Assembly: GCA_903921365.1 (NCBI GenBank)
Contig: CAIXPS010000090.1
Location: 1-50,957, forward strand
Direction: 5' to 3'
Origin: an uncultured bacterium
GTDB taxonomy: Bacteria > Chloroflexota > Anaerolineae > J036 > Brachytrichaceae
Length of the DNA: 50,957 nucleotides
The position numbers and the translations under genes are program-made. Positions 3,178 through 38,493 of this stretch are shown here, one piece after another (the first letter of the stretch is position 1; each line of letters starts with the position of its first letter). The notes below the pieces were generated by a model. That model was not told the origin of the DNA. It saw only the letters and a list, made by a program, of their open reading frames with translations, and ran no database searches.

Positions 3178-4524
3178 TTAGTCCAGTAATCCCAGCGGTT
3201 CCTCAATCATCTCGGCCAGCGCCTGCAGGAATTGCGCTCCCCGCGCCCCATCGACGGCGCGATGGTCGCACGACAGCGTCAGCGTCATCATATGCTGGAC
3301 TGCCGGGCGGTCATCCACTGGCGTCACACGTTGCACGATTCGACCCACGGCCAGGATCGCGGCCTGTGGCGGGTTCACAATGGCGTTGAATGAGTCGACC
3401 CCGTACATCCCCAGGTTGCTGATCGTGAATGTTCCACCGGCAATATCAGCAGGTTTTAACTTGCCGGCTTGTGCGCGACCGACCACCTCCGCGCGCCGCG
3501 CGGCAATCTCCACAATGCTGAGCGACTGCGCCTGGTGGATGACTGGCACAACCAGCCCATCCTCAATTGCCACAGCCAGCCCGATATTCACGTCATGGTT
3601 CAGATGCACCGCGCCGTCCTGCCAGCGGGCGTTCACGCGCGGATGTTGTAACAACGCCGCCGCCGCCAGTCTCACAATCAGATCGGTGTACGTGATCTTC
3701 GCAGGACTGCGCTTTTGCGCCCGTTCGCGCCAGGTCATCAATCGCCCCGCGTTCACTTCGCGCGTCAGGTAAAAGTGCGGGACACTCGTCCAGCTCTGAG
3801 TGGTGCGTTCGGCCATGATGCGCCAGATCGTGCCGACCTTGACGGTTTCTGTGTCATCAGCAGATCCCGTTGGGGATGCTGCTTCCCCCCGCCCGGCGGG
3901 AGGGGCGGCCTGGCGAGGGGCGCGGGCGGCGACGGCAGACAGGATGTCCCCGTAGATCACCGCGCCTTCGATGCCGCTCCCTTTGATCGTTGCGACATCA
4001 ATGTCATGTTCGCCTGCCGCAACCCGCGCCTTTGGCGACGCAGGCGCAAGCCGCGCATTTGAGCGCTGCTTCAGGCTTTCCAGGTATGCCAGTACGTCTG
4101 CCTTCTCGATCTTCTCACCGGCTGGCTTGACCAGACTGAGATCAACGTTGTTTTCCTCCGCAATCCGCCGCGCCAACGGGCTGGCTGCGACGCCTGTGGC
4201 AGAAGGCTCTGACTTTCCCCGCTCCGTTGCCTCTATCTCCCCTCGCCCTGTAGGAAGGGCGGCTTGGCGGGGGCGGGCGGCTTCACCCGGCGCCAGGATC
4301 AGCGCAATTACCTGCCCAACTGGCACTTCCTGCCCAACCCCAAGGGTGACGTTGCTGAGAATACCGCTGGCGTCCGCCTCAATCTCGACGGTGGTCTTGT
4401 CGGTTTCGACCACCATCAGGATTTCGCCTTTCTTGACGGCTTCGCCTTCGGACTTCATCCACTGCAATAGCTTCCCGGTCTCTTGCGCAACACCGAGCGC
4501 CGGCATGATCACATTTGTAGCCAA
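3178..4524 (-). CDS. pdhC: Dihydrolipoamide acyltransferase E2 of a pyruvate/acetoin-type dehydrogenase
   Basis: E2 core enzyme, 448 residues, moving the acyl group from the E1-bound intermediate to CoA through a lipoyl arm. Residues 1-78 are the lipoyl domain, with the lipoylated lysine at K43 in VETDKTTVEIEA. Residues about 113-149 form a peripheral subunit-binding domain (ASPLARRIAEENNVDLS). Residues about 160-200 form a second such domain (ASPKARVAAGEHDIDVATIK). The catalytic domain follows from about 227 and ends with the active-site block S-C-D-H-R-A-V-D-G. Two linkers, at residues 84-96 and 202-214, share PRQAA and GRGE and derive from a DNA repeat. The start is TTG at 4524, with AGGAG at 4536-4532; it gives the family-typical MATNVIMPALG N-terminus. 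No E3 gene lies in the window. Confidence 0.93.
   Translation of the reverse strand: MATNVIMPALGVAQETGKLLQWMKSEGEAVKKGEILMVVETDKTTVEIEADASGILSNVTLGVGQEVPVGQVIALILAPGEAARPRQAALPTGRGEIEATERGKSEPSATGVAASPLARRIAEENNVDLSLVKPAGEKIEKADVLAYLESLKQRSNARLAPASPKARVAAGEHDIDVATIKGSGIEGAVIYGDILSAVAARAPRQAAPPAGRGEAASPTGSADDTETVKVGTIWRIMAERTTQSWTSVPHFYLTREVNAGRLMTWRERAQKRSPAKITYTDLIVRLAAAALLQHPRVNARWQDGAVHLNHDVNIGLAVAIEDGLVVPVIHQAQSLSIVEIAARRAEVVGRAQAGKLKPADIAGGTFTISNLGMYGVDSFNAIVNPPQAAILAVGRIVQRVTPVDDRPAVQHMMTLTLSCDHRAVDGARGAQFLQALAEMIEEPLGLLD
3883..3918 (-). repeat. In-frame interspersed repeat, copy 2, in E2 linker
   Basis: A GC-rich repeat that on the plus strand reads GCCCggcGGGaGGGGCGGC-cTGGCG. It encodes the second PRQAA...GRGE linker of E2 on the minus strand. 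It resembles the copy at 4237-4272 and, more loosely, the intergenic C-rich/G-rich element at 12225-12258. Confidence 0.6.
4237..4272 (-). repeat. In-frame interspersed repeat, copy 1, in E2 linker
   Basis: This is the counterpart of the copy at 3883-3918 and encodes PRQAALPTGRGE between the lipoyl domain and the first subunit-binding domain. Its plus-strand form is CCCCTCGCCC...GGGCGGC-tTGGCG. Both copies keep the reading frame and fall only in flexible linkers, where insertion is tolerated. Confidence 0.6.
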
Positions 4525-9609: not shown

Positions 9610-9872
9610 ATTGATGAAACGCAAGGTGTTAAAGGGTCGCGGCGAGAATCCGGATGGCGCCTCCGGTCGGGGTAGGGGTGATAGCATTGCCCATGAGCCG
9701 TGGTCAACCTGATATGTCATGGCAATGTGGCTCGGCACACCCTGGACGCCGCCAACCACAAAACGACGGTGCGGGCGAACCAGTAATCCGCATACCTCGA
9801 CTCGTCGTGGTCACCTTGCAACAATCCGCCCGCAATGTCATATGCGTGTTGATGGCGCCTCCAGTCATTGTA

Positions 9873-9935
9873 GGGGTGATAGCATTGCCCGACGAACCGT
9901 GGCCTGCCAGATATGTCATGGCAATGCTTCACCCC
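9873..9935. repeat. Hairpin repeat unit, second copy
   Basis: GGGGTGATAGCATTGCC (9873-9889) and GGCAATGCTTCACCCC (9920-9935) are complementary except for one extra base in the left arm, with a 30-base loop. This is the same architecture as the unit at 10008-10070. Confidence 0.7.
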
Positions 9936-10007
9936 GGACGACGCCAACCCGTCGTGATCACCTGGCAACGATCCGCCCGCAATGTCGTTTTTGTGCCGAT
10001 GACGGCC

Positions 10008-10070
10008 GGGGCGAAGCATTGCCAGTAACGTCACGGCACACATCGTTTTCGTGGGCAATGCTCTCGCCCC
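10008..10070. repeat. Hairpin repeat unit, third copy
   Basis: GGGGCGAAGCATTGCC (10008-10023) and GGCAATGCTCTCGCCCC (10054-10070) pair over 16 bases with one bulged base, with a 30-base loop. The compensating Y/R changes relative to the 9873 unit (GGGGTG/CACCCC versus GGGGCG/CGCCCC) suggest selection on, or copying of, the stem. Confidence 0.7.
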
Positions 10071-10188
10071 TACGATGATCGGAACGGATCGGACGCTCGA
10101 CCATTCGTGATCACCTGGCAACGATCCGCCCGCAATGTCGTATGTGTGCCGATGACGGCCGGGGCGTGCAGGGCTGCATTGCCATAGC

Positions 10189-11013
10189 CTATAGGCGGTA
10201 CACACGGCAGGCGGTCCCGCCCATGAGCTGGTTGATCTGTCGCGTGCTCAGCGAGGCGCCTGCCTGTCGCGCGAGATCGACGGTGTCGCGATACTCGCCG
10301 GCCTGTGTGCAGATCGGCCAGTCGCTGCCGAACATGAGACGATCTTCACCCAGCACATTGATGGCCGATTGTATATACTGGCCGAGCGTCTGCCACAATG
10401 TGTTGCGTGGAACATCGTCATTCGAAGTCAGATAGCCGGACACCTTGACCGCCACATTCTGCATGCCGGCTAGCGGTTGTAGCGCAGCGCCAAACTCTTC
10501 TTCACCGCCGATCTTCAGCCGATGCCCGCCAAAGTGATCGAGGATGAACACGGTCTGCGGGTGTGAGCGGACGATGTCAATCGCCAGCGGCATGTGGATC
10601 GAACCCATCAACAGATCGCACGACAACCCCAATCGCCCCAGATGCGCCAGGTTTACATCAATCGTTGCGCGCACTTTTGGCGCAAAGGGGAGATTGAGAC
10701 GAACGCCCTTGAAGCGTGAGTCGCGCGCGAACCCGCTCAACATGCTGCCTGCATTGCGATTCGCCAGATCGACGTGCCCGACAACGCCCGCTAGGAATGG
10801 ATGCTCGTTACAAAGTTCGAGCATCCAGGGGATTTCTTCCGGCGTCCCGGTTGCCTGCACCAGAATCGCGCGCTCCACACCGCGGGCGCGCATTTCCGGG
10901 CGCACATCCTCAGGCAGGCGATCCTGATACAGCACCGGGTTCGCTGGCGTCAACCACGGATAGTCAAACCGATTGATCTGCCAGCAATGCAGATGGCTGT
11001 CGACGATGTCCAG
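10189..11013 (-). CDS. Amidohydrolase 2 family (L-fuconolactonase-like) starting at CTG
   Basis: A TIM-barrel metal-dependent hydrolase of the COG3618 kind, which includes sugar lactonases. Read from CTG at 11013 it has 274 residues and begins (M/L)DIVDSHLHCW, so the metal-binding HxH is H7/H9. Later ligands are H160 in ILDHFGG and D221 in FGSDWP. No ATG, GTG or TTG exists between the upstream gene's TAA (11017-11019) and the HxH. The next usable start, TTG 10953, would delete this essential motif. GGAGAG at 11026-11021 lies seven bases before the CTG, within the end of the preceding gene. Context with two sugar-acid dehydratases fits a lactonase that opens an aldonolactone. Substrate is inferred. 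Confidence 0.8.
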   Translation of the reverse strand: MDIVDSHLHCWQINRFDYPWLTPANPVLYQDRLPEDVRPEMRARGVERAILVQATGTPEEIPWMLELCNEHPFLAGVVGHVDLANRNAGSMLSGFARDSRFKGVRLNLPFAPKVRATIDVNLAHLGRLGLSCDLLMGSIHMPLAIDIVRSHPQTVFILDHFGGHRLKIGGEEEFGAALQPLAGMQNVAVKVSGYLTSNDDVPRNTLWQTLGQYIQSAINVLGEDRLMFGSDWPICTQAGEYRDTVDLARQAGASLSTRQINQLMGGTACRVYRL

Positions 11014-11016
11014 AGG

Positions 11017-12162
11017 TTATCTCTCCACCGAAATCGCGTAGCCGCCCTCGATGTGCGGGAATCTGGCTTCCAGTCCCTCCGGGATATCGACGCCCAGACC
11101 AGGTTTGTCTGGAATCTCCAGCCAGCCGTCTGTGATCGTCGGTTTCGCCTGTAGGATCTGCCATTGCAACGGCCCCTGGATCATGCACAGTTCGAGCACT
11201 TTGGGATTTGGGAGCGCGGCAACGGCATGAGCATTGGCCATTGTCATCAGGCCGTTGTGCCAGTTGTGCGGGCAAAGCCCCACGCCGTAACGGTGCGCCA
11301 CTTCCGCGATCTGCATGACTGCCGATATCCCGCAAATCCCTGCATCGGGCTGGACGATGCTGTAGGCTTTCTTCTCCAGGTATGGGCGGAATTGCTCCAG
11401 GGTGGTGAACTGTTCGCCGCCGGTGATCGGCATGTCGACGGACGCATTGATGCGCGCATACCCGTCGATGTCAGTCTGTGGGATCGGTTCCTCGAACCAC
11501 TTGAAACCGAGTCGATCCAGCTCCTTTGCAACCACGAGCGCCTGGTCAATGGTCAGGCGCTGGTTGCCATCGAGCATCAACTCCATTCGCCCGTTAACCG
11601 TCTGCGCCAGTTCACGCACCAGGCCGAGGAAGCGATCGACCGTGACGCCATCCCAGGCCCAGTCCGTGCCAATGCGGAACTTCATCGCGGTGTATCCGGA
11701 CGCGATGTATTCGATGGCTTCGTCGATCAACTGCTCCGGGCGGTGGCGCCAGTCATATCGGCACCCGCTGGAGGCATACAGGCGCACTTTTTTCAAAGGA
11801 GTCGCGGTAAGAAGTTGACTGACCGGCTTACCCGCCGCCTTGCCCTTCAAGTCCCATAAAGCACTGTCGATGCCGCCGATCGCGCAGTCATGCGACCAAC
11901 TCCTGTTATGCGGCACAGGCACGGTGCGCTGGTCGAGCGGGTCGCGCCCGATCAGCAGAGGGCTATACCACTGCACCCACTCGCGCATCATCAACGGATT
12001 ACCATAGGCGCAGGCCTCGCCGATGCCCGTGAGCCCCTCATCGGTCTCGATCACGACAATGGCGCAATCGGCCTTGATAATCCGCGATCGCGCGGTAACC
12101 CACTGTCGTTCAAGCTCGTGCGGCCGCGATAAGCAAAGCGTTTGTATACCAGTGATTTTCAT
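11017..12162 (-). CDS. Mandelate racemase/muconate lactonizing family sugar-acid dehydratase
   Basis: Enolase-superfamily enzyme of 381 residues that abstracts the proton alpha to a carboxylate, most likely dehydrating a sugar acid. An N-terminal capping domain (1-120) is followed by a TIM barrel. The general-base lysine is K161 in AMKFRIG, where the usual KxK is K-x-R. Metal ligands are D198, E224 and E250, and the Asp-His dyad is D273 and H299 (CPHNWHNG). The complete catalytic set says it is active. The substrate is unknown; fuconate- or rhamnonate-type acids fit the adjacent lactonase-like gene. It is the fourth gene of the minus-strand operon. Confidence 0.85.
   Translation of the reverse strand: MKITGIQTLCLSRPHELERQWVTARSRIIKADCAIVVIETDEGLTGIGEACAYGNPLMMREWVQWYSPLLIGRDPLDQRTVPVPHNRSWSHDCAIGGIDSALWDLKGKAAGKPVSQLLTATPLKKVRLYASSGCRYDWRHRPEQLIDEAIEYIASGYTAMKFRIGTDWAWDGVTVDRFLGLVRELAQTVNGRMELMLDGNQRLTIDQALVVAKELDRLGFKWFEEPIPQTDIDGYARINASVDMPITGGEQFTTLEQFRPYLEKKAYSIVQPDAGICGISAVMQIAEVAHRYGVGLCPHNWHNGLMTMANAHAVAALPNPKVLELCMIQGPLQWQILQAKPTITDGWLEIPDKPGLGVDIPEGLEARFPHIEGGYAISVER
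11021..11026 (-). promoter_or_regulatory. Ribosome binding site supporting the CTG start
   Basis: GGAGAG on the minus strand overlaps the last codons of the mandelate-racemase-like gene. It is seven bases from CTG 11013-11011, which is standard spacing. Initiation four bases after the upstream stop would be coupled to termination of the preceding gene. Confidence 0.55.
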
Positions 12163-12190
12163 AGCTATTTTTACCTTCCAGTAAATATCT

Positions 12191-12258
12191 GATCTTCTCC
12201 GATCTTCTCCGATCCTTTTCTGATTCCCCCTCCCGGAGGGAGGGGGTTAGGGGGCGGG
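12191..12258. repeat. Short tandem repeat and C-rich/G-rich element between dehydratase genes
   Basis: GATCTTCTCC occurs twice in tandem plus a partial third copy at 12191-12214. It is followed at 12225-12258 by an imperfect inverted repeat CCCCCTCCC...GGGAGGGGG and a G-rich tail. The second part resembles the repeat found in frame inside the E2 gene. It breaks the otherwise tight operon by about 100 bases. Confidence 0.55.
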
Positions 12259-12262
12259 CCTC

Positions 12263-13432
12263 TTACGAATCCGCAATCCCGCCATCCGGATGTTCTGCGC
12301 CGTAATACCGCCGCGCCATGGTGTTCGCCTTATTCCCGCTGGAGAAATCTGGCGGCCGGCGCGCGCAGGCGGCTTCATCGATCTCGACGCCCAGTCCAGG
12401 CTTCGTGGGCGGCAGAATGTGACCGTTGACCACGGGCAAGGGGTCTTTGACCAGTTCCTGCGCTTCCGGCGCCGTGTCCGGGTCGATCATCTCCTGGATG
12501 ACGAAGTTCGGGCATACCAGGTCAACCTGGACGCAGGCGGCAGTCGATATCGGGCCGTAAGGATTGTGCGGCGCGATGCCGGCATAGTACACCTCTGCCA
12601 TTGTGGCGATCTTGCGCACCTCGCTGATTCCCCCGGCGTGGCAGCAGTCGGGTTGCAGGACGCTGGCGGCCTTGTTCTCGAGGATTTCGCGGAAGCCCCA
12701 CCGCGTGAAGAGTCGCTCGCCCGTGGCGATTGGCGTGACTAACGCGCGCGCAATCGGCGCCATGGCGTCGGGGTTCTCGGCCTGGCAAGGCTCTTCGAGG
12801 AACAACGGGTGATATGGCTCGAACACGCGGCCATACTGAATCGCCATTTGTGGCGTCAGGCGACCGTGCAGGTCCAGCAGGATGTCAATGTCCTCGCCAA
12901 CCGCTTCGCGCACCGCCCGCAACCCGGCTTCGGCCTGTCGCAAACCCCTTGGCCCGTCCACGATGCCTGTGATCGGCACTGGAACCGTCTTAATCGCCGT
13001 CCAGCCTTTCGCCACTTTTGACAGCGCGTCCTGCGCCATCAACTCTGGCGTGGCGCCGCCGAAATGAGTGTAGACGCGCACCTTATCCCGCGCCCGTCCG
13101 CCCAGCAGTTCGTAGATGGGTTTACCAAGTTCCTTCCCTTTGATGTCCCATAGCGCCTGATCGATTCCTGATATCGCGGACAACCCGATAATCCCCATGC
13201 GCCAGAAACCGCTGCGTGACAGGATTTGCCAGCAGTACTCGATACGCGTGGGATCTTCACCCATGATCATGGGTTCCATATCCTGGATGCAGCCGGCAAC
13301 AGCGCGGGGTTTGCCTTCGACCGAAGCTTCTCCCCAGCCGAACAGCCCGGGCTGATCCGTCTCTACCTTCACGAACACGAAGATCCGATGGCCGCCGTCG
13401 GCCAGGATCGGTTTGATAGCAGTTATTTTCAT
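12263..13432 (-). CDS. dgoD: D-galactonate dehydratase family enzyme
   Basis: A 389-residue enolase-superfamily dehydratase that converts an aldonate to a 2-keto-3-deoxy acid. Key residues D187 and H189 (LLDLHGR), E213 (LEEP), E239 (ATGER) and H289 (APHNPYGP) correspond one to one, with a shift of four, to D183/H185/E209/E235/H285 of E. coli DgoD as I recall them. The N-terminus MKITAIKPIL is standard. The C-terminal 30 residues (after KPGLGVEID) are an extra tail. Gluconate or other aldonates are possible substrates within the family. It lies between the 640-residue protein and the mandelate-racemase-like enzyme. Confidence 0.85.
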   Translation of the reverse strand: MKITAIKPILADGGHRIFVFVKVETDQPGLFGWGEASVEGKPRAVAGCIQDMEPMIMGEDPTRIEYCWQILSRSGFWRMGIIGLSAISGIDQALWDIKGKELGKPIYELLGGRARDKVRVYTHFGGATPELMAQDALSKVAKGWTAIKTVPVPITGIVDGPRGLRQAEAGLRAVREAVGEDIDILLDLHGRLTPQMAIQYGRVFEPYHPLFLEEPCQAENPDAMAPIARALVTPIATGERLFTRWGFREILENKAASVLQPDCCHAGGISEVRKIATMAEVYYAGIAPHNPYGPISTAACVQVDLVCPNFVIQEMIDPDTAPEAQELVKDPLPVVNGHILPPTKPGLGVEIDEAACARRPPDFSSGNKANTMARRYYGAEHPDGGIADS

Positions 13433-13483
13433 GTTCCTCTCCAGTTCAGAACGCGCCGATGCCTGCTAAGGCAGTGCGTGCTT

Positions 13484-15406
13484 CTACCAGGGCAAACGAT
13501 AGGATGGGACGTTTACAAACCGCTCCATCATGAAATCAAGCGTTATTTCTGTTCCGGGCGGCATATGCACCTGTAGGAGCCTATCGTTGACTTCCATGCG
13601 CTCAGAGGCTGTCTGTAGCGTTGGCGCGGCATACTGTGAGAGCTTGCCGGGATAGTCGCTGGTGCGCACCGGGTATGTCACGGATACAAACTGGTGTTCA
13701 CCAAACGCGCCAGCCTGAATCAGCACCTCGCGATCCTCGAACAGATTCAAGTTAACCAGGTGAACGACGGCGCCATCGTCTGATACCTTTTCCACGAGCG
13801 CGGCTACATCCGGAGGCAAGCCAGGGCGCAGGCGAACCGGGTCGAAATAACGCACCCGGCAAAACAGCAACCCGCCGTTGTAGATAATCTGCGGCGCGCC
13901 TGTGGTTAACTGCACGAGTGCCTCGGTGGTGACTGGGTTGAGTTGCTGCCAGTGATGGATGCCGACCTGGGTCAGGTCGTCATGGTCGGCGCGGATCATG
14001 TCCAGGCGGCGCGTGACCTGTCCGATGCTCTCCTGCAGGATGGTTTCGGGGTAGGCGGGGTTTTCACCGGCGATGAAACGCAGCCACGGTTGCTCATGGC
14101 CGAAGTCCTCTTTGCCGCGGAAGGGCACAACCGGTTCCCACTCGTAGCCGCTGTTCGCCCGCAGATATTCCAGGCGCTCCCAGTCCTCCGTCGTTCCCGA
14201 AGCGTTCCATAGCGCGGTTGGATACACCAGCGACATGGGTTGATAGTCGAACCAGCCGGAATCCGTATAGCGGTAGGGCACAACGAATGTTTTATGGTCG
14301 CTTATTCCCGCAGTCTGGCCGACCCAGTGCTGGCCGATGCTCATCACCAGTTCGCGGATATCCCGCATCGCGCCCAGTTTGACAATGTGATCCATCTGAA
14401 CGCGCGGCAGTTCCAGGTAGGCGGGGTCGCGCGTCATCAGGTAGGCGTTGGTTGCGCCAACGAGCGCCGCCATCTCGATGTTGTAGAACCCGTGCGGCCA
14501 CGACCAGCCATACAGTCCGCCGTACCACTTGCCATTGATGTACTCGCCGACCTCTCCCGACAGGCCGACGTTGTCTGGCATCAGCCCACCGTTCTGGCGG
14601 GCGCGCTCCATCCATGCGCCAACATACTCCTGCACCCAGCGGGTGTACTTCTCGTCGCCGGTCATGAGGAACGCATTTGTGATCAGGCTGGTCACACACA
14701 GGTTGCCAGCAACATCGCCGCGACTCATGCGATCCTGCATCGCTCGGCCCATCCGGCCGGCCAGTTCAGGATCGTTCAGGTCGTCGTATGTCTTGACGCC
14801 CGGCACGTCCTCATAGGGCAGGCCGTAGGGGCGCATGCCCTCGCCCCAGTTGTACGACGGTTCGCCCTCGAAATCGGCAAAGCCCCACCGCGGGCCGCCG
14901 CTCCCGTTGTGCGGCGCGCGGATGAGTTGATGCGCCGGATCGTAGTTGGGAGCCTCAGGGTCCTCGTTCAGGTAGAACCCGGCAAACCGTTTTGCGCGAT
15001 CCTGCAAAACCGGGTTAGTGGGATCGGCCAGACAGAGGAAGTAGAAGTAAATGTAGCTCTCGCCCTGATGGAACTGGTCGTACCCGATCTCGTATTCCTT
15101 GTGAATCTGGCCGGAGCGCGTCAACTGGCGAGTGACGGCGTCCCACTCGCGTTGACCCAGCGAGAGCATGTGATCGGCGCCGCCAAGCAGATAGTGCAGC
15201 GGCCAGTTGTAGAAGCTTTCGTAGAAGTCGTCCGCGCCGTCGCGCCCGAAAAGTTTGTCGCGCCAGATTAACTCGCCAGTGTCCGGGTGGGTATATTTCT
15301 GTAGAAATGGGTGCACCGACTGATCCATCACTTCGATCAGCCTGCGCTCAAGCGCCGCCCACGCCGGGGGCGTCAGGCACGGCATAGATGCATTGATGGT
15401 CAGCAT
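13484..15406 (-). CDS. Unrecognised 640-residue protein of a sugar-acid operon
   Basis: I do not recognise the family with certainty. The protein is soluble, without a signal peptide, and rich in aromatic residues. Its first 450 residues have the rhythm of an alpha/alpha-toroid carbohydrate enzyme: DDFYESFYNWPLHYLLGG, YEIGYDQFHQGESYIYFYF, RWGFADFEGEPSYNWGEGM and GLYGWSWPHGFYNIEMAALV are typical of substrate-facing helix ends. The last 150 residues are beta-rich (VVHLVNLNLFEDREVLIQAG, QVHMPPGTEITLDF), like an accessory sandwich domain. It starts three bases after the mannonate-dehydratase-like gene, with GGAGG in that gene's last codons, so the two are coupled. A glycosidase, lyase or epimerase role on an acidic sugar is inferred from context. 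Confidence 0.8.
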   Translation of the reverse strand: MLTINASMPCLTPPAWAALERRLIEVMDQSVHPFLQKYTHPDTGELIWRDKLFGRDGADDFYESFYNWPLHYLLGGADHMLSLGQREWDAVTRQLTRSGQIHKEYEIGYDQFHQGESYIYFYFLCLADPTNPVLQDRAKRFAGFYLNEDPEAPNYDPAHQLIRAPHNGSGGPRWGFADFEGEPSYNWGEGMRPYGLPYEDVPGVKTYDDLNDPELAGRMGRAMQDRMSRGDVAGNLCVTSLITNAFLMTGDEKYTRWVQEYVGAWMERARQNGGLMPDNVGLSGEVGEYINGKWYGGLYGWSWPHGFYNIEMAALVGATNAYLMTRDPAYLELPRVQMDHIVKLGAMRDIRELVMSIGQHWVGQTAGISDHKTFVVPYRYTDSGWFDYQPMSLVYPTALWNASGTTEDWERLEYLRANSGYEWEPVVPFRGKEDFGHEQPWLRFIAGENPAYPETILQESIGQVTRRLDMIRADHDDLTQVGIHHWQQLNPVTTEALVQLTTGAPQIIYNGGLLFCRVRYFDPVRLRPGLPPDVAALVEKVSDDGAVVHLVNLNLFEDREVLIQAGAFGEHQFVSVTYPVRTSDYPGKLSQYAAPTLQTASERMEVNDRLLQVHMPPGTEITLDFMMERFVNVPSYRLPW

Positions 15407-15409
15407 GGG

Positions 15410-16492
15410 TCAGCCTCCTCGCTCGATGATCTGCATGGCGGCGCGCATATAACCCAGGGCATAGGCCATTCCAGCATGCCACGGCGCTTCGCACGACATG
15501 CTCGGCGTGTGGTCCGGGATGAGCACGCCGGCATACTTGTTCAGGTGCAGGATGCGCAGCAGGCGGATCATGTCGACGTCGCCTTCATCGATGAATACTT
15601 CATCGTAGTGCGGCACTTTGCCTTTGACGTTGCGGAAGTGAATATACGCGATGTTGTCTTGTTTGCTGTGGCGGTCCACCAGATCGTAAATGTCGCCCTC
15701 GCTCATTTCGGCCACTGTGCCCAGGCACAATTCCATCGCATTGTAGCGGCTGGGTTTTACGTCCAACACCTGTTGATAGAGACCTGGTTGATACACCAGG
15801 CGCGCTGTTCCACGCAATGTGGGCATCGGCGGGTCGTCAGGATGAAGCGCCAGGCGCACGTTGGCCTCCTCAGCGACTGGCAGTAATTCTTCCAGGAACC
15901 AGGTGAAGCGCTCCCAGAGTTGCGCCTCTGTCACCGTGCCGATTGTGCCATGCGCGCCAGTGGGATCGAAGGCTTCGGGGTCGACGACCATATTCCAAAC
16001 CATGCCATTCGGGATGAGCGGCTCTTCTGGCGCATGAAAACCAACCGTGCCGGCATTGCCGCGCGCGGCGTTCCCGTTCGAACGTCCCCACACGCCCGCG
16101 ATGCTGAAGTTGTAACCCAGCACCGGGATGCCAGCCTTGCCCATGCTGCGGATGATCTGCTTGAGGTGCTCCATCTGTTCGCGCTTTTTTGGCCCGTCAA
16201 GCAGCACGTCATACCAATGGCCTGGTTCAAAGTTTTCGATGGCTTCTAGTTCCAGCCCTTCGGCATTGATCGCGGCGCGCAAGTCGCGCATCCATTCGTA
16301 TGTCCAGCTATCTGCGCTGGGCGCCGAGACCCCAAATCCCATATCTTTGTAACCGACGGTCGCGTTCTTTGATGCCGTTGTATTGAAGTGTCCCACCAGG
16401 TGCGCAACGATGTGCGACGCCCCGGCCTGTTTGGCGAAGCGGAAGTTGTCCGCATTGAGCATATTCCCATACAGTCCAAGTCCTAATTTCAT
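15410..16492 (-). CDS. uxuA: Mannonate dehydratase-like (UxuA family) enzyme
   Basis: A 360-residue TIM-barrel enzyme of the UxuA family, which dehydrates D-mannonate to 2-keto-3-deoxygluconate in hexuronate breakdown. Recognisable parts are MKLGLGLYGNMLNADNFRFA, the metal-site loop RLALHPDDPPMPTLRGTARL, MELCLGTVAEM, IAYIHFRNVKG and the C-terminal GVLIPDHTPSM. ATG 16492 is preceded by GGAGG at 16504-16500 with seven-base spacing, which fixes the start over a longer frame reaching to 16558. It is slightly shorter than the E. coli enzyme (about 394). It is the first gene of the operon that runs to 10189. The substrate could be another aldonate. Confidence 0.8.
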   Translation of the reverse strand: MKLGLGLYGNMLNADNFRFAKQAGASHIVAHLVGHFNTTASKNATVGYKDMGFGVSAPSADSWTYEWMRDLRAAINAEGLELEAIENFEPGHWYDVLLDGPKKREQMEHLKQIIRSMGKAGIPVLGYNFSIAGVWGRSNGNAARGNAGTVGFHAPEEPLIPNGMVWNMVVDPEAFDPTGAHGTIGTVTEAQLWERFTWFLEELLPVAEEANVRLALHPDDPPMPTLRGTARLVYQPGLYQQVLDVKPSRYNAMELCLGTVAEMSEGDIYDLVDRHSKQDNIAYIHFRNVKGKVPHYDEVFIDEGDVDMIRLLRILHLNKYAGVLIPDHTPSMSCEAPWHAGMAYALGYMRAAMQIIERGG

Positions 16493-16665: not shown

Positions 16666-17934
16666 ATGTTGGATATCAATGAGACACCTCATCAGCAGAC
16701 GTTGAGTGACGGGTTTGTGATGCGCACAGCCGCAAACGAGAACGACGTGGAGCGGGTTGCGCAGTTCAATGGCGTCATCCATGGTCACGGCGTCACCGGG
16801 ATGACGCGGAGCATTTTCCTGCATCACCCGGATACGCGCGGGCGCGACCTGATCTTTGTTGAAGACGCGCGCACGGGCGAGGTTGTGTCTTCGCTGTGCG
16901 TGATTCCGTGGAAGTTGAGTTACAGCGGCGTCACGATCAATTCGGGCGAAATGGGCATCGTTGGCACGCTCAAGGAGTATCGCAATCGCGGACTGATCCG
17001 CGAGCAGGTGAAGTTCTTCAAGCAGCGGTTGAAGGAACGCGGGTGTGTGATGTCGCATATCCAGGGCATCGGGTATTACTATCGACAGTTCGATTACGAA
17101 TATGCGATGCCTTTGGAAGGCGGCTACATCATCACCGGGCGCGAAATACCCAGCCAGCAAACGCCAGAATACTCGCTGCGACTCGCCCAGAGCGACGATC
17201 TGTCCATTCTCGTATCACTGGCAGACAAGGCTGGCGGCGACCTGAACATTCATTCCGTTCGCAACGAAGCCATTTGGCAGTATTTGATGACGCATTCCGC
17301 AGGCGCCGAGACTGAATCCGAGGTGTGGGTTGTGGAAGACGCCGCCCGAAACGCATGCGCCTATCTGCGGTTGCCAAAGTTCCATTTCGGTGAAGAGCTA
17401 ACGGTAAGCGAGGCCTCACAGATGACCTTTGGTCAGGCGGTTGCGGTGTTGCAGCATGCGACCACCCTGGCTGTCGCGCGTCATATCCCTGGTGTGCGGC
17501 TGTGCCTGCCGGCAAATCACATCTTGATGCGGGTGGCTAAATCGTTTGGCGCGCGTGATATGGGCGCCTACGCATGGCAGATTCATATCCCGGATATTGC
17601 GAACCTGTTGCGCGCAGTTGCCCCGGCATTGGAGCGAAGAATCGCCCTATCGCCGTTTGCTGGATTCACCTGTGATCTTCCTTTGTGCTTCTATCGTCAA
17701 ACGGTGGCGCTGCGTTTCGTCGATGGATGTTTGACCAAAGTGATCGATAGTGGAAACACCGATGGCGCCCCAAATAACTTCCCGCCGCGCTCGTTTACAC
17801 CGCTGGTTCTTGGGTATCGGTCGCTTGGCGAAACCCTGGCAGCTTATCCGGATGCCGGCGTATCGGCGGCAAACCGGCTACTCATCGAAACGCTGTTCCC
17901 GAAGGTGCAGGCATTCCTTTATACGATTTATTAA
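16666..17934 (+). CDS. GNAT family N-acetyltransferase, Eis-like three-domain type
   Basis: A 422-residue acetyl-CoA-dependent acetyltransferase. The first GNAT fold carries the acetyl-CoA loop GIVGTLKEYRNRGLIREQV (residues 97-115), and a second GNAT-like domain and a C-terminal SCP2-like segment follow, as in Eis/enhanced-intracellular-survival-type proteins. GGAGG at 16652-16656 supports the ATG at 16666. It starts a plus-strand run divergent from the sugar-acid operon and ends one base before the class II aldolase gene. The acceptor (sugar amine, lysine or an antibiotic) cannot be told. Eis itself has about 400 residues, so the length fits. Confidence 0.8.
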   Translation: MLDINETPHQQTLSDGFVMRTAANENDVERVAQFNGVIHGHGVTGMTRSIFLHHPDTRGRDLIFVEDARTGEVVSSLCVIPWKLSYSGVTINSGEMGIVGTLKEYRNRGLIREQVKFFKQRLKERGCVMSHIQGIGYYYRQFDYEYAMPLEGGYIITGREIPSQQTPEYSLRLAQSDDLSILVSLADKAGGDLNIHSVRNEAIWQYLMTHSAGAETESEVWVVEDAARNACAYLRLPKFHFGEELTVSEASQMTFGQAVAVLQHATTLAVARHIPGVRLCLPANHILMRVAKSFGARDMGAYAWQIHIPDIANLLRAVAPALERRIALSPFAGFTCDLPLCFYRQTVALRFVDGCLTKVIDSGNTDGAPNNFPPRSFTPLVLGYRSLGETLAAYPDAGVSAANRLLIETLFPKVQAFLYTIY

Positions 17935-17935
17935 C

Positions 17936-18577
17936 ATGGTTACAAAAGAAGGCATCGTCAAATATCAGTTGGACTATCTGCCGGGGCATCCAGTTAACTT
18001 CCCTGTGATCGCGTCTCTCAATGCCTGGCGCAAAATCCTGTTCATGGCCAATCTGGTTGGGCAGGATGTGGATCGCTATGGCGGCGCCGGTTACGGTAAC
18101 GTGAGCCAGCGGTTGGAACGGGCCGTCAAGGGCACGCAACCGCGCTTCGCTATCAGCGGGACGCAGACGGGCGGTCTGGTGGAACTCACTGCGGATCACT
18201 ATGCGATTGTTACAGAGACGTGGCCTGAAGAGAATCGCGTCGTCGCAACCGGACCGATCATGCCATCGTCAGAGTCCCTGACGCACGGCATGCTGTACGT
18301 GGTGGATCAGGCGGCGAACTTCATCCTGCACGCGCATTCCCCAGAGATATGGCAGAATGCGAGCGTGCTAGGAATCCCGACAACCAGCGCCAGTGTGGCC
18401 TATGGCACACCGGAGATGGCTGAGGAGGTGCGCCGTCTGTTCCGCGATAGTCCAGTGCGCGAGAGAAAGATTCTATGCATGGGCGGCCATACGGATGGCG
18501 TCATGTCATTCAGCCGCACAGCCGAGGAAGCGGGATGCGTCATGATGGCGTATCTGGCGCGCGCGCTGGCGCTGTAA
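17936..18577 (+). CDS. Class II aldolase/adducin family protein
   Basis: A 213-residue zinc-dependent aldolase-type protein. Zinc ligands H132 and H134 (LHAHSPEIW) and H185 (MGGHTDGV) are present, as is a catalytic-type glutamate E113 in SSESLTH. ATG 17936 follows the acetyltransferase stop (17932-17934) by one base, so translation is coupled. Upstream in-frame residues belong to the acetyltransferase's alternate frame and look non-native. Class II aldolases cleave sugar phosphates or dehydrate methylthioribulose phosphate. The N-terminal G-G-A-G-Y-G-N-V-S phosphate-binding loop matches. In this context it could cleave a keto-deoxy sugar acid or a sugar phosphate. Confidence 0.75.
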   Translation: MVTKEGIVKYQLDYLPGHPVNFPVIASLNAWRKILFMANLVGQDVDRYGGAGYGNVSQRLERAVKGTQPRFAISGTQTGGLVELTADHYAIVTETWPEENRVVATGPIMPSSESLTHGMLYVVDQAANFILHAHSPEIWQNASVLGIPTTSASVAYGTPEMAEEVRRLFRDSPVRERKILCMGGHTDGVMSFSRTAEEAGCVMMAYLARALAL

Positions 18578-18599
18578 TAAGTGTTCGTGAGTTCAGCAG

Positions 18600-18624
18600 T
18601 GCCGGTGCGCCAAGCGCATCGGCA
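18600..18624. terminator. Hairpin between aldolase and oxidoreductase genes
   Basis: TGCCGGTGCGC (18600-18610) and GCGCATCGGCA (18614-18624) form an 11-pair stem with one G-T wobble and a three-base loop. It lies 22 bases after the aldolase stop and 17 bases before the next ATG. There is no T-run, so it may attenuate or stabilise rather than terminate. Confidence 0.4.
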
Positions 18625-18641
18625 AAGTGACAAGGAGCGTT

Positions 18642-19640
18642 ATGGCAAAGCTAAAGGTGGCAGTGGTCGGAACAGGCAAGGTGGCGGAAAACAACTATCT
18701 GCCGTGCCTGGCGAACGAAGCTGATGTGTCTCTGGGTTACTTCAACCGCACACGCGCGAAAGCCGACGCCGTTGCGGCGCGTTTTGGCGGGCAGGTGTTT
18801 GGCTCTCTCCGTGAAGTGATCGATTGGCAACCGGATACCGTCATGGTGTTAACGCGTGAGAATGAGCGATTTGACGTCGCGATGGCCTTGCTTGACCTTG
18901 CGCCGCGCCGGGTCTTTTTCGAGAAGCCGCTCGTCGCGCACAACGGTCAGGAGAATGTCACAGAACAGGACTTCCTTGATGGCCGAGCTGTGCTCAGAGC
19001 TGCGCAGGTCAAGAATTGTGAAACGGCGATGGTCTTTAACTATCGCTTTTTCGAGCATTCGAAACTGGCCAAACGGATTGTGGCGGAACGTGATTTCGGC
19101 GCGGTCATGAATGTCACCGGTCTCGTGCATTACGCCTGCTGGAGCCACGCGATTGACTTGATCCACTATTTTGCCGGGCCAATTGCCGAGATCAGTGCTT
19201 TGCAGGGTCAGACTGAACACGGCATGTCCTTCCTGCGCGCGCGGGATGTGACCGCGGCATTCCGCACGATGGATGATGCCACAGGCACATTGATCGGCAC
19301 GACGACTCTGGCGTGGGATTACCCGTTGTTTGAGCTGTCGTTTAACTTCGAGCGCGGTCGCATCCGCATGCAGGACCTCGACGGTGACATGGAAGTGATG
19401 GATGCGCGCGCCATTGAGATCGAGCGCTACCACATCAGTGCGGCAAAGTCGCGCTGGGATCAGTACAACAGTTCATTCGTAAAATCTGTAAAAGCCTACC
19501 TTGAGTCGATACGGCAGAATGAACCTCCGCCAGTGCCGGGAATCGCCGGTCTGCAGGAACTGCAGTTCGAAGCGGGTCTGAAGCGCTCTATCGCGCTCAA
19601 TCGCCCGGTTGCACTAAGCAGCGAATTCCAGCTCGCTTAA
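18642..19640 (+). CDS. Gfo/Idh/MocA family NAD(P)-dependent oxidoreductase
   Basis: A 332-residue dehydrogenase for sugars, inositols or similar polyols. The N-terminal Rossmann fold has VVGTGKVAENNYLP (residues 7-20) and the EKP motif in FFEKPLV. The C-terminal alpha/beta domain supplies the substrate site, with H-A-I-D-L-I-H-Y-F (helix carrying the usual catalytic-histidine position). ATG 18642 has AGGAG at 18633-18637 only four bases upstream. A GTG at 18627 would add five residues. It follows the aldolase in the same direction, so together they could process a carbohydrate intermediate; the substrate is unknown. Confidence 0.82.
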   Translation: MAKLKVAVVGTGKVAENNYLPCLANEADVSLGYFNRTRAKADAVAARFGGQVFGSLREVIDWQPDTVMVLTRENERFDVAMALLDLAPRRVFFEKPLVAHNGQENVTEQDFLDGRAVLRAAQVKNCETAMVFNYRFFEHSKLAKRIVAERDFGAVMNVTGLVHYACWSHAIDLIHYFAGPIAEISALQGQTEHGMSFLRARDVTAAFRTMDDATGTLIGTTTLAWDYPLFELSFNFERGRIRMQDLDGDMEVMDARAIEIERYHISAAKSRWDQYNSSFVKSVKAYLESIRQNEPPPVPGIAGLQELQFEAGLKRSIALNRPVALSSEFQLA

Positions 19641-21027: not shown

Positions 21028-21154
21028 TGCAACGATTACCAGCGTTTATGCAAGCCGTTTTTCGGCATATACTTGCAAGGCTTTTATGGCGTCGCGCTGG
21101 CCCGGCCTGTCTGAGCCAAAAATCGAACGGCGCCTTGCTGCAAGTATTGTGATC

Positions 21155-22324
21155 ATGAATTCAATGCGAGAACTTTTTCTACTCGATCCAGACATCGTTT
21201 TCTTCAACCACGGTTCATTTGGCGCTACGCCTCGCCCCGTGTTCGAAAGTTACCAGCGCTGGCAACGCGAACTCGAGCGCAATCCAGTCAAGTTTATCGG
21301 GCGCACGCAGAACGGGCTGCTTAAACAGGCGCGTGCCACACTCGGCGAGTATCTCGGAACTGATGGCGAGAATCTCGTTTTTGTGACGAACGCGTCATTC
21401 GGGATCAACGTCGTCGTGCGCAGTATGAAGCTCGGTCCAGAGGACGAAGTATTGACGACCGACCATGAGTACGGCGCGGTGAACAACAACTGGAACTATC
21501 TGGCTGACAAACTGGGTTTCAAGTACATCATCTACCCGATGCCCTTGCCGATGACCACGCAGGAGGCGTTTGTCGAGGAATTCTGGCGGGGAGTGACGCC
21601 GCGCACCAAGGTCATCTCAATCAGCCACATTACTTCGCCCACTGCACTGATCTTCCCGGTGCAGGAAATATGCCGGCGCGCGCGCGCGGCGGGCATTATC
21701 ACGCTCATTGACGGCGCACATGCGCCTGGGCAGATACCTTTGAATCTCGATGAAATCGGCGCAGATTTCTACGTCGGCAACTTGCACAAGTGGTTGTGCG
21801 CGCCAAAAGGCGCTGGATTCCTGCATGCGCGCCTTGAATCGCAGCAACTGCTTGAGCCACTCGTCGTGCATGGTTGGCACAAAACGCCGGATCATCCGCA
21901 AAGTTTTGTCGATATTCAACAGGGGCAGGGCACGCGCGACAGCGCTGCATTCCTGGCTGTTCCGGATGCGATTGCGTTCCAGAAGGAACACAATTGGGAT
22001 CAGGTGCGCGCCGATTGTCACGCGCTAGCCGCACAGGCGCAACACCGCATCTGTGAGGAGTTCGATCTTGAGCCATTCAGCCCGGTTAACGCCAATCCCC
22101 AGTGGTGGTCGCAAATGTTGAGCATGCCGCTGCCAAATGTTGCCGATCCGCGTGATTTCTCGCGGGTGGTGCTCGAAGACTACAAAATTGAAATTCCTAT
22201 GGGCGCATGGCGCGGACCGATGCAGGCGCGCATCTCCATTCAGGCTTACAACACGCAGGAAGAGGTTGACCTTTTCGTCGATGTGGTCACAAAGTACGCG
22301 AAGACGCATATCCCGACCGCCTGA
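21155..22324 (+). CDS. Class V aminotransferase, isopenicillin-N-epimerase-like
   Basis: A 389-residue PLP enzyme of the CefD-like branch (fold type I). The family N-terminus MNSMRELFLLDPDIVFFNHG makes ATG 21155 the best start. A longer frame from ATG 21086 adds 23 unrelated residues but does have a weak AAGG. PLP contacts include D186 in LIDGAHA and the Schiff-base K212 in GNLHKWLCAPKG. Members act as amino-acid epimerases, cysteine desulfurase-like lyases or ergothioneine-type lyases, so function stays open. It ends seven bases before the stop of the convergent GH43-like gene, leaving no room for a terminator. Confidence 0.82.
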   Translation: MNSMRELFLLDPDIVFFNHGSFGATPRPVFESYQRWQRELERNPVKFIGRTQNGLLKQARATLGEYLGTDGENLVFVTNASFGINVVVRSMKLGPEDEVLTTDHEYGAVNNNWNYLADKLGFKYIIYPMPLPMTTQEAFVEEFWRGVTPRTKVISISHITSPTALIFPVQEICRRARAAGIITLIDGAHAPGQIPLNLDEIGADFYVGNLHKWLCAPKGAGFLHARLESQQLLEPLVVHGWHKTPDHPQSFVDIQQGQGTRDSAAFLAVPDAIAFQKEHNWDQVRADCHALAAQAQHRICEEFDLEPFSPVNANPQWWSQMLSMPLPNVADPRDFSRVVLEDYKIEIPMGAWRGPMQARISIQAYNTQEEVDLFVDVVTKYAKTHIPTA

Positions 22325-28295: not shown

Positions 28296-29294
28296 TTAGC
28301 TGAGGATGCTGAGTTTGAACGTCCCGCTCAGCGATGCGCGCGGTTGCAGGACGCGCACCCCCGTGCCGGTCAGTTGTTGCGCATACAGGTTAAAACCATC
28401 GTTTGCATGCGTCACAGGCTCGACCGCGAAGAATGGCTTGCCGGGCGGCGTATAGACAATGACATGACCGAAAACGGGATCGCATGAGAACTCCAGTCGA
28501 ACCCCGGACGAGGGGTAGGCAATCGTTGCGCGGCTATCCCAACCGCCGAAGCAATGATCGATGTCGCGCGCGCCCACTGGCGCGAGTGCGCTGAAGTCCA
28601 TCTCAGCTGGCGCATCGAACATTCCTGATCTGTCGTCAGTCGGCAGGCGCGTGCGAACAGGTTCGACCGCCTTTGCCGTCATTCCGGCAAGCGGAGGATA
28701 GACTCCCGCGACGCGCAGTTGCAGTTGTGCTTCATCCGTGGGCGCTCCTCCGAATCCCCGGTTGAAATACGGGTGGAACCCGAAGCCAACGGGCATCGGG
28801 CTCTCGCCGGAATTCAGAACCGTTAGGGTGGTTCCAAAGCTATTCCCCTCCAGAGAATAACGGATCTCCGCGCGCAGCGGGAAGGGGAAGTTGAAATCAG
28901 GGAACTCGCGCGAGTCAAGCGCGCAGGTTAGCGAGTCCGCCGTGTGTTCCGTTACGCGCCACGGCCGGTCGCGGCCATCGCCGTGGATGGCATACCCTTG
29001 CGGCGTGTTGGCGCGCAATGCGTAATGTGTCCCGTCAAAGTCGAATCCTGCCCCTGTCAGCCGATTTGACCAGGGGATCAGATTGAAGGATGCCAGCATC
29101 CCTGATAGCGGCATCCTGGATGCCAGCATCCTTGATGTCAACGCCCCTGAACTGTGGGCGGCCAATACCTCTGGAGGCGTCGGGCGCATCAACGGAACCC
29201 ATGCGCCCTGCCATTTACCCTCAAGCGAAACGATGCTTGCGCCGGGATCGGGCAATACACTCAACCGAAGTGAAGCGTTCTCAATTGTCAGCAT
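28296..29294 (-). CDS. Aldose 1-epimerase family protein
   Basis: A 332-residue galactose-mutarotase-like beta-sandwich that interconverts alpha and beta anomers. N-R-L-T-G then QGYAIHGDGRDRPW gives the family histidine at H104, followed by VGFGFHPYFNR with the second histidine and FFAVEPVTHANDG with the catalytic glutamate. A repeat-derived insertion (residues about 50-68, with RMLAS...GMLAS) interrupts the usual region before N-L-I-P-W. The gene lies beside GH4 alpha-galactosidase-like and other sugar genes. The ATG is six bases after the BrnA-like stop. Confidence 0.85.
   Translation of the reverse strand: MLTIENASLRLSVLPDPGASIVSLEGKWQGAWVPLMRPTPPEVLAAHSSGALTSRMLASRMPLSGMLASFNLIPWSNRLTGAGFDFDGTHYALRANTPQGYAIHGDGRDRPWRVTEHTADSLTCALDSREFPDFNFPFPLRAEIRYSLEGNSFGTTLTVLNSGESPMPVGFGFHPYFNRGFGGAPTDEAQLQLRVAGVYPPLAGMTAKAVEPVRTRLPTDDRSGMFDAPAEMDFSALAPVGARDIDHCFGGWDSRATIAYPSSGVRLEFSCDPVFGHVIVYTPPGKPFFAVEPVTHANDGFNLYAQQLTGTGVRVLQPRASLSGTFKLSILS
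29088..29147 (-). repeat. Two 30-bp tandem units inside the epimerase gene
   Basis: GGATGCCAGCATCC, itself an inverted repeat, occurs at 29088-29101 and 29118-29131, exactly 30 bases apart. This adds ten codons per unit without a frameshift. The rest of each unit has diverged. It looks like an inserted palindromic repeat tolerated in a loop. Confidence 0.65.
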
Positions 29295-29579: not shown

Positions 29580-30908
29580 TTACACCGTGAAATGCTTGAA
29601 TGTTGGGAGGTAATCCTGGTTCTTGGCCAGCATTTCGTTGACCATTTGTTTGATCTCAGCCAGGGATAACATGGCTGAAGTAAGCGGATCATAGGCAACT
29701 GCCTGGAAGATCAGGCGCGGATTTCCTGTGATCGTCGCTTCCACGGCCATTTCTTCGATCTGCGAGCTGATGGAGGTCAATGCAGCGCACTGTGAGGGCA
29801 GGGCGCCCACATAAGCTGCCTCGAAACCTTTCTTGCTGACCCACACTGGAATCTCGACGCAGGCGTTCTGGGGCAGGTTGGGGATCAGGCCTGTGTTCGC
29901 CACGTTGCCATTGAACGTAAATGGCTCACCGCCCTGCAGCGCGTTGATGATGTAGGCGGCATATTCGTGCCCGCGCTCCAGCGAGATGGGGGTTTCTTTG
30001 GCGAACCACTGCTTGGCGTCATCGCGCCAGTTGTCGATGCGTTTTACGTATTCCTTGACGATGTACGCGTACTCGCCAGGGTTCCAGCCCGTGCCGTGTG
30101 TGCAGTACTTCTCAAGCAGGTCCGGGCGTTTGCGGAACCACGCGTTGTATTCCGAGTTGTGCCCGCTCGATTCGGTGACGTAGTAGTCGAGGTTGAGGAA
30201 CATCTCATTGCGCACCTGTTCCTCGTTATAGATAGCCGGGTTCTCGGTCATTGCTGTGCGGATGAGCGGGTAGGCGTCCTTGCCTTTCCATTCATACTTC
30301 AGGTACCACGACATATGGTTAATGCCCGCGCAGGTGTAGGTGATCTCGCTCATGGGCGCGCCGATCCACTTTGCCAGCATCTCCGCCGTGCCTTGTACGC
30401 TGTGGCACAGTCCGGTGAGTTGGATATTCGTTTCGCGCTGCATGGCGCGGCAAAGCATCACCATCGGGTTGGTGTAGTTGAGCATCACGGCATCCGGGCA
30501 ATACTTTTCCATGTCGTGGGCGATGCCGAGCATGACCGGAATCGTGCGCATCGCGCGGAAGATGCCGGACGGGCCGCGCGTGTCGCCGATGTTGATGTCG
30601 ACGCCATATTTCTTCGGTATCTCGATGTCGTGGCGCCATACGTCAACGCCGCCGGCGAGGATTGTGACAAGCACGACGTCTGCGCCGGTGAGCGCCTCGG
30701 CGCGATCCAGCGTCGCGACGACCTTCGCCGGGTAATGACCCATCTCGACGATGCGGCTGACGGCGCGATAAGCGAAGTCAAGTCGCTCCGGGTCGATGTC
30801 CATCAAACACAGCGTTGCATCAGTGAGAAGCGGGAAGGTGAGGATATCGCGAACGAGTCCGCGCGTGAAACCGAGGCTTCCCGCGCCAATAAATGTAATT
30901 TTTGTCAT
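29580..30908 (-). CDS. melA: GH4 family glycosidase, alpha-galactosidase (MelA)-like
   Basis: A 442-residue NAD- and metal-dependent glycosidase that works by oxidation at C3 and elimination. The Rossmann motif GAGSLGFT (8-15), LNYTNP (143-148), C168-H169 in LCHSVQ and N197-H198 in AGINHMSW are the cofactor and metal-binding residues of the family. The G-G-V-D-V and G-D-T-R-G-P-S-G segments are typical of the alpha-galactosidase and alpha-glucuronidase branches. It heads the minus-strand carbohydrate run. Alpha-galactoside versus alpha-glucuronide cannot be decided from sequence; the uronate-like genes at 10-16 kb make the second worth testing. Confidence 0.88.
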
Positions 30909-36626: not shown

Positions 36627-36629
36627 CGA

Positions 36630-37487: not shown

Positions 37488-37501
37488 CTTGATCTATTGT
37501 C

Positions 37502-38425: not shown

Positions 38426-38469
38426 ATTACTATTCCTCCTGATTGGGTGTGCTTGAGAATGGCGTTCAG

Positions 38470-38493
38470 CCACTGCTGTGTTCAACGCAGTGG
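38470..38493 (-). promoter_or_regulatory. Leader hairpin of the ABC operon
   Basis: CCACTGC and GCAGTGG form a perfect seven-base stem with a 10-base loop in the untranslated leader between promoter and start codon. It may regulate or protect the mRNA. No known riboswitch fold was recognised. Confidence 0.35.

Follow-up and report, generated by a model that had tools for sequence, protein, structure and literature searches.

The non-phosphorylative L-fucose pathway consists of a dehydrogenase, a COG3618 lactonase, a dehydratase, and an aldolase or a dehydrogenase. The oxidative hexuronate pathway of Agrobacterium comprises the enzymes Udh, Gli, Gci, and KdgD (PMC6353982). The 50,957-nucleotide (nt) contig CAIXPS010000090.1 (GenBank assembly GCA_903921365.1), referred to below as the window, comes from an uncultured member of the family Brachytrichaceae (Chloroflexota, class Anaerolineae) and carries five consecutive genes coding for a UxuA-like protein, a protein of 640 residues (hereafter P640), a DgoD-like galactonate dehydratase, an MR/MLE-type (hereafter MR-like) enzyme, and a COG3618-type amidohydrolase. 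As an operon for sugar-acid catabolism it is of an ordinary kind, and P640 is the interesting part of it. We put at about 0.5 the probability that the five genes form a single operon for the catabolism of a sugar acid, or of a sugar oxidized to one, by a non-phosphorylative route with P640 acting as a glycosidase at its head.

Enzymes of the operon

The product of the first gene matches the UxuA family (PF03786) with 166.7 bits against a gathering score of 23.7 and stays below the NCBIfam cutoffs for uxuA itself (97.2 versus 199.55 bits for TIGR00695 and 132.1 versus 191 bits for NF003027), so its scores mark it as a divergent UxuA-like family member that should not be named UxuA. Its alignment with 3ban retains the HPDDPP, C(x)GT, H(x)RNV, and PDH motifs with the metal-binding residues and the catalytic H, C, H, and DH. 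The DgoD-like protein is the only one in the operon that exceeds the cutoff of a named enzyme, galactonate dehydratase (NF010624, 388.8 bits, cutoff 311), and it retains the DxH, E, E, and H residues in the alignment with 3rr1 (E value of 4e-87). The MR-like protein is above the gathering scores of both PF13378 (187.9 bits) and PF02746 (59.2 bits) and reaches no named-enzyme cutoff in NCBIfam. Its nearest sequence in the Protein Data Bank (PDB) is 4ggb, with 5olc and 3bjs almost level (150 versus 147 bits), and both the metal ligands D, E, and E and the Asp-His pair of 4ggb are retained. The amidohydrolase matches PF04909 (131.9 bits) and 4dlf (E value of 1e-30); its score with the L-fucono-1,5-lactonase model NF052480, 166.3 bits, is far under the cutoff of 400.

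At the superfamily level, the assignment of these dehydratase and lactonase sequences is certain. The preliminary description of this DNA, made from the letters alone, had proposed a sugar-acid operon with three intact dehydratases; Pfam and NCBIfam bear out the dehydratase and lactonase-like families, and the motif alignments with 3ban, 4ggb, and 3rr1 bear out the active sites.

P640 and its relatives

P640 matched nothing in Pfam, NCBIfam, or the PDB sequences, either alone or as a 19-member profile. The earlier view that it belongs to no recognized family therefore stands, and no clear match to a known family unrelated to carbohydrates emerged from these libraries. Individual comparisons gave no match to PF07470 (GH88; GH stands for glycoside hydrolase family) at an E value of 0.1 and none to PF07944 (GH127), PF07221 (AGE), or PF03663 (GH76). 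With hhalign and shallow alignments built from the phylum, the probability for GH88 was ∼1%, and nothing was returned for GH127 or AGE. As for the Zn-site cysteines of GH127, no Cys residue of the P640 family is conserved above 86%. A literature search found nothing on the family itself.

Members of the family were found in 40 of the 400 Chloroflexota genomes and at no fewer than 587 confirmed loci in species-representative genomes. The 80 loci kept for study include representatives of Chloroflexota, Latescibacterota, Gemmatimonadota, Acidobacteriota, Planctomycetota, Actinomycetota, Devosia, and Paenibacillus. Plasmids carry homologues as well (17 records, of which 12 are haloarchaeal), listed there as “hypothetical protein” if annotated at all. 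Carriers known by name include Devosia epidermidihirudinis, Nonomuraea, and Haloterrigena turkmenica (WP_012945796). P640 thus represents a large, widespread family that lacks a curated name in the libraries compared. The host genome of the window encodes two additional copies (57% and 45% identity); upstream of one paralogue (contig C119, L034:10676-12364) are genes for a weakly GH127-like protein of 562 residues and an aldo-keto reductase. In the tree, P640 of the window falls among Chloroflexota copies near L068, L056, and L059 with support of 85 to 92, which is not decisive, and the haloarchaeal copies form one well-supported clade.

Predicted fold and conserved residues

The AlphaFold 2 (AF2) model of P640, built with 44 family members in the alignment, has a mean predicted local confidence (pLDDT) of 94.5 and a predicted template modeling score (pTM) of 0.94. 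In it, an (alpha/alpha) barrel takes up ∼500 residues, and positions 518 to 628 form a C-terminal beta domain. The fold prediction suggested in the preliminary description thus returned a confident (alpha/alpha) barrel, whose best matches are sugar-active enzymes. In VIA-align, these are GH76 (Z score of 16.4, root mean square deviation [rmsd] of 4.9, 293 aligned residues, ∼10% identity), a GH88 unsaturated glucuronyl hydrolase (Z score of 15.7, rmsd of 4.8, 309 residues), the AGE-type cellobiose 2-epimerase (Z score of 15.6, rmsd of 4.7, 315 residues), and the human GH47 mannosidase (Z score of 14.9, rmsd of 4.2, 363 residues). These four folds are effectively tied, and the tie persists when the barrel is folded alone. 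The top rows in Foldseek are D-mannose isomerase and cellobiose 2-epimerase, and GH51 arabinofuranosidases are matched over ∼100 residues of the model.

The lanthipeptide synthetase ThurKC was also matched (8sap and 8sao, Z scores of 14.5 and 14.0), so that P640 could be imagined as a barrel of another (alpha/alpha) group, such as a lanthipeptide cyclase domain, with no activity on carbohydrates. However, these Z scores are slightly lower, no cyclase-type genes lie near by, and the sugar-catabolic surroundings are consistent across several phyla, which makes this explanation very improbable; the lanthipeptide-cyclase-like candidate was rejected on gene context.

The invariant polar and aromatic residues of P640 include D59, E63, E104, D110, H113, E116, D231, D278, W294, Y299, W301, W385, K432, and E495. 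They cluster in loops that lead into the helices at positions 58, 111, 233, 306, 438, and 495, or in the initial turns of these helices. In (alpha/alpha) barrels, the active site is usually found in loops before, or at, the starts of helices, and the cluster in the model would accordingly mark the catalytic cleft at the expected place. A DD pair seen in the sequence at positions 59 and 60 is a candidate counterpart of the catalytic Asp-Asp pair of GH76.

The same data could be explained by P640 being an AGE-type epimerase or isomerase of sugars or sugar acids that makes the isomer accepted by the dehydrogenase or the dehydratases. The leading Foldseek rows and the AGE score, tied with those of GH76 and GH88, speak for it, and several epimeric aldonates are suggested by the three kinds of dehydratase that the operon encodes. 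However, AGE enzymes employ two catalytic histidines, and, by sequence conservation, H113 is the sole near-invariant histidine of the P640 barrel (95% in the wider family, with H305 and H437 dropping to 74% and 63% in divergent members). AGE enzymes also lack the C-terminal beta domain. An epimerase is, on balance, unlikely.

Gene neighborhoods in other genomes

Neighbors were counted at ≤4 kb and at 6 to 10 kb from P640 within the same fetched loci; these loci are related, so the counts are not independent. Sugar-binding proteins of the CUT1 ABC importers were found 33 times at the shorter distance versus 2 times at the longer one, permeases 31 versus 5 and 32 versus 8 times, RraA-like aldolases 19 versus 2 times, aldo-keto reductases 17 versus 6 times, and PhyH proteins 14 versus 2 times, nearly all of them on the same strand as P640. 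COG3618 lactonases and dehydratases also recur beside P640. Generic enolase-superfamily genes are weakly linked (12 near versus 5 far), with strong linkage confined to the close relatives of the window's own genes. In Caldilineaceae, the order is fixed: two permeases, a binding protein of the DUF3502 type, P640, an MR-like protein, Gfo/Idh, and PhyH. Two members of this family (L055 and L057) have, directly upstream of P640, 49% relatives of an aminotransferase-like gene (class V by its look) that lies in the window at 21086-22324, ∼6 kb from P640.

The co-occurrence that the preliminary description had proposed as a check is seen for all three dehydratases, relatives of which (58 to 77% identity) are encoded in other genomes on the strand of P640 and at most 5 kb from it. 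In tblastn searches, all 11 MR-like relatives with at least 50% identity (58 to 72%) were so placed; a UxuA-like relative (72%) lies ∼12 nt from P640 in a Thermoflexales genome (L059), and a DgoD-like relative (77%) lies 51 nt from it in an Anaerolineae genome (L090), both on its strand. Close MR-like relatives are present in 3 of the 400 Chloroflexota genomes, all of them P640 carriers, albeit one with a relic alone. UxuA-like relatives are present in 15 genomes, and P640 is found in 11 of these compared to 40 of 400 overall, with kinship among the genomes ignored.

It might be argued that the five genes for sugar-acid enzymes form a loose assembly that serves no single pathway, P640 having an unrelated carbohydrate task. 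The three dehydratases are rarely found together elsewhere, P640 has no sugar neighbors in many genomes, and in several drafts the UxuA-like gene and P640 are on separate contigs. Nevertheless, the 3-nt spacing of these two genes in the window, the adjacency of each dehydratase to P640 in other genomes, and the excess of P640 among the carriers of UxuA-like genes render such an assembly decidedly improbable. The earlier suggestion that three dehydratases point to the use of several aldonates, or of a branched acidic glycan, goes beyond these data. Elsewhere, P640 usually has only one of the three beside it. This pattern fits a broad or alternative use of aldonates and proves no substrate; the triple set is an unusual feature of an otherwise ordinary non-phosphorylative sugar-acid operon.

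Two genomes that share the taxonomic family of the window, G283 (L172:5956-6357) and G325 (L173:6594-6995), carry relics of P640 consisting of only the final ∼135 residues (53% identity). In G283, a 69% relative of the MR-like gene is retained 7.3 kb from the relic on the same strand; therefore the two genes can separate, and the pathway need not rely on P640 in every genome.

Substrate and proposed pathway

The statement that no sugar importer is near by holds for the window, where the ABC set found (35862-38485) has an amino-acid-type binding protein of the SBP_bac_3 family, and fails for other genomes, in which CUT1 importers are closely linked to P640. The host genome encodes three CUT1-type binding proteins on other contigs.

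In 7 of the 12 haloarchaeal plasmid records, the P640 homologue has an annotated pectate lyase no more than 10 kb from it, and several of the records also encode GH28, GH4, MR/MLE, dihydrodipicolinate-synthase-type (KdgD-like) aldolases, mannonate dehydratase, and the glucuronate isomerase UxaC. Close to P640 in Asticcacaulis are kdgD, dgoD, and genes for a sugar transporter and a TonB receptor. In Actinomycetota, P640 loci have neighbors of GH95 and GH141, families known for alpha-L-fucosidases. Clustered pectate lyases were reported in Haloterrigena turkmenica by Anderson et al. (2011, PMC3102087), whose text, as far as its passages on these clusters go, describes no P640 homologue alongside them.

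The pectate lyase neighbors, together with a weakly GH88-like gene at two Devosia loci, could indicate that P640 is itself an intracellular polysaccharide or oligosaccharide lyase giving unsaturated uronates, given that (alpha/alpha) barrels occur in several lyase families. However, no lyase is among the best fold matches, barrel lyases carry large beta domains, unlike the small one of P640, and the partial match to GH51 arabinofuranosidases points elsewhere, so that a lyase appears quite unlikely.

In the preferred reading, the route would begin with the oxidation of an aldose or uronate to a lactone, for which a Gfo/Idh-type or aldo-keto reductase-type dehydrogenase would be responsible. The lactone would then be opened to an aldonate by the COG3618 lactonase, the aldonate would be converted to a 2-keto-3-deoxy acid by a dehydratase of the UxuA, DgoD, or MR type, and that acid would undergo aldol cleavage by an RraA-like or class II aldolase. 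P640 would stand at the head of this route as a cytoplasmic glycoside hydrolase that acts on a short oligosaccharide after its import and frees the monosaccharide from it; the oligosaccharide would be of a pectic type or another one with uronic acids or deoxysugars. By inspection, its N terminus is unlike a signal peptide. What the data show directly are the order and families of the genes, the preserved motifs of the dehydratases, the modeled fold, and the recurring neighborhood; we infer co-transcription, the cytoplasmic location, hydrolysis rather than epimerization or lysis, and the substrate.

Several observations weigh against this reading. Glycosidase and epimerase folds are tied, so the fold class of P640 is supported by the model and its chemistry is not. 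P640 has no detectable sequence or profile kinship to any glycosidase family named in the libraries compared. In Latescibacterota and Gemmatimonadota, P640 has few clear sugar neighbors. The link to pectin may be confined to distant relatives (36 to 38% identity), and a search of the host genome found no lyases of families PL1 and PL22; therefore the substrate in the host need not be pectin and could be a uronic acid or a deoxysugar. Pectin was accordingly dropped as the host substrate.

Judged by fold and neighbors together, P640 is probably a carbohydrate-active enzyme, and glycosidase is the most likely among the choices, with roughly balanced odds. It may well found a new (alpha/alpha)-barrel family, of glycosidases or else of lyases or epimerases, performing the first intracellular step on pectic or other acidic oligosaccharides in a non-phosphorylative route. 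As delineated by sequence, the proposed family spans Chloroflexota, Latescibacterota, Gemmatimonadota, Actinomycetota, Pseudomonadota, and haloarchaea. Naming its reaction would at once label many “hypothetical proteins,” at 587 loci or more and on archaeal megaplasmids, would fill the missing step between the import and the oxidation of acidic or deoxy sugars, and would probably add one family to the carbohydrate-active enzymes.

Organization of the locus

The coordinates are listed in Table 1. All five genes lie, as initially described, in one direction, on the minus strand at 10189-16492, and the ATG at 16492 with GGAGGA just 5' of it was likewise upheld as the UxuA-like start.

Table 1. 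Genes of the P640 operon and of its divergent side
Gene product	Coordinates	Strand	Basis
UxuA-like protein, first gene of the operon	15410..16492	-	Pfam UxuA; motifs versus 3ban
P640, 640-residue (alpha/alpha)-barrel protein with C-terminal beta domain	13484..15406	-	AF2 model
DgoD-like galactonate dehydratase, enolase superfamily	12263..13432	-	NF010624; 3rr1
MR/MLE-type dehydratase or cycloisomerase, enolase superfamily	11017..12162	-	PF13378/PF02746
COG3618-type amidohydrolase, lactonase-like	10189..11013	-	PF04909; 4dlf; probable CTG start at 11013
Class II aldolase-like protein, divergent side	17750..18577	+	PF00596, 33.3 bits, above cutoff
Gfo/Idh/MocA oxidoreductase, divergent side, possible sugar dehydrogenase	18627..19640	+	PF01408, 45.8 bits

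The UxuA-like stop codon is separated by 3 nt from the ATG of P640 (15406), P640 and the DgoD-like gene are 51 nt apart, and the DgoD-like and MR-like genes are 100 nt apart. With the in-frame CTG at 11013 taken as the start of the COG3618 gene, the gap between it and the MR-like gene is 3 nt. This start is probable from the sequence because the TTG at 10953, called by the program, would remove the metal-binding HxH motif (DSHLHCW), and the frame has no ATG, GTG, or TTG 5' of that motif. The region 11001-11019 (CTG at 11013 or ATC at 11007) thus seems to hold either a rare start codon or a sequence error. No terminator-like sites were found on the minus strand, the promoter and terminator scan giving no excess over shuffled sequences; therefore a single transcript across the five genes is possible.

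The divergent plus-strand block at 16666-19640, absent from the preliminary description, encodes a GNAT protein, the class II aldolase-like protein, and the Gfo/Idh/MocA dehydrogenase. The aldolase-like translation contains HAH and GGH motifs, and the true start of its gene is probably near or after the GNAT stop codon at 17934. No relative of it was found near P640 in other genomes, so it is only possibly tied to the operon as the last step. The Gfo/Idh/MocA gene has 64 to 66% relatives at two other loci (L117 and L118).

Two further genes lie ∼13 kb away, one of the GH4 family (29580-30908) and one that is aldose-epimerase-like (28296-29294); GH4 genes are also seen near P640 homologues in haloarchaea. 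Between a beta-propeller gene and the end of the operon (9653-10166), there are direct repeats of 40 to 67 nt, in three copies ∼150 nt apart that are 73 to 94% alike, along with inverted copies. A GC-rich palindrome-like sequence, CCCCTCCCTCCGGGAGGGGG, lies between the DgoD-like and MR-like genes (12226-12245; chance expectation of 0), and a second, imperfect copy of CCCCTCCCTCCGGGAGGGGG is found at 3886-3905 within a lipoyl acyltransferase gene.

Comparison with known systems

The GH88 and GH105 unsaturated uronyl hydrolases share the (alpha/alpha) barrel with P640 and resemble the role proposed for it in acting in the cytoplasm on imported uronic-acid oligosaccharides and in being encoded in pectin and uronate gene clusters. 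In contrast to them, P640 has an extra beta domain and ∼250 more residues and gives no sequence or profile match. The GH76 alpha-1,6-mannanases and GH47 alpha-mannosidases, which are among its best-scoring folds (Z scores of 16.4 and 14.9), differ in their gene context, show only ∼10% identity, and have no Pfam match to it. With the AGE superfamily (cellobiose 2-epimerase, mannose isomerase, and YihS), P640 shares the barrel and the top Foldseek rows; it differs in its single near-invariant barrel histidine and in not matching PF07221.

At the pathway level, the operon resembles the Agrobacterium hexuronate pathway in having an enolase-superfamily enzyme, nearest in the PDB to 4ggb (the Gci of Agrobacterium), beside a COG3618-type amidohydrolase, and KdgD or related genes are found near P640 in Asticcacaulis and haloarchaea. 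However, 4ggb is barely ahead of the other MR enzymes (150 versus 147 bits), and neither Udh nor KdgD was found in the operon of the window. The operon amidohydrolase scores under the L-fuconolactonase cutoff (166 versus 400 bits) and in this respect departs from the non-phosphorylative L-fucose pathway. The likeness to that pathway lies in the COG3618 lactonase, aldo-keto reductase, dehydratase, and RraA-like aldolase that recur around P640, as well as in the GH95 and GH141 genes found near it in Actinomycetota.

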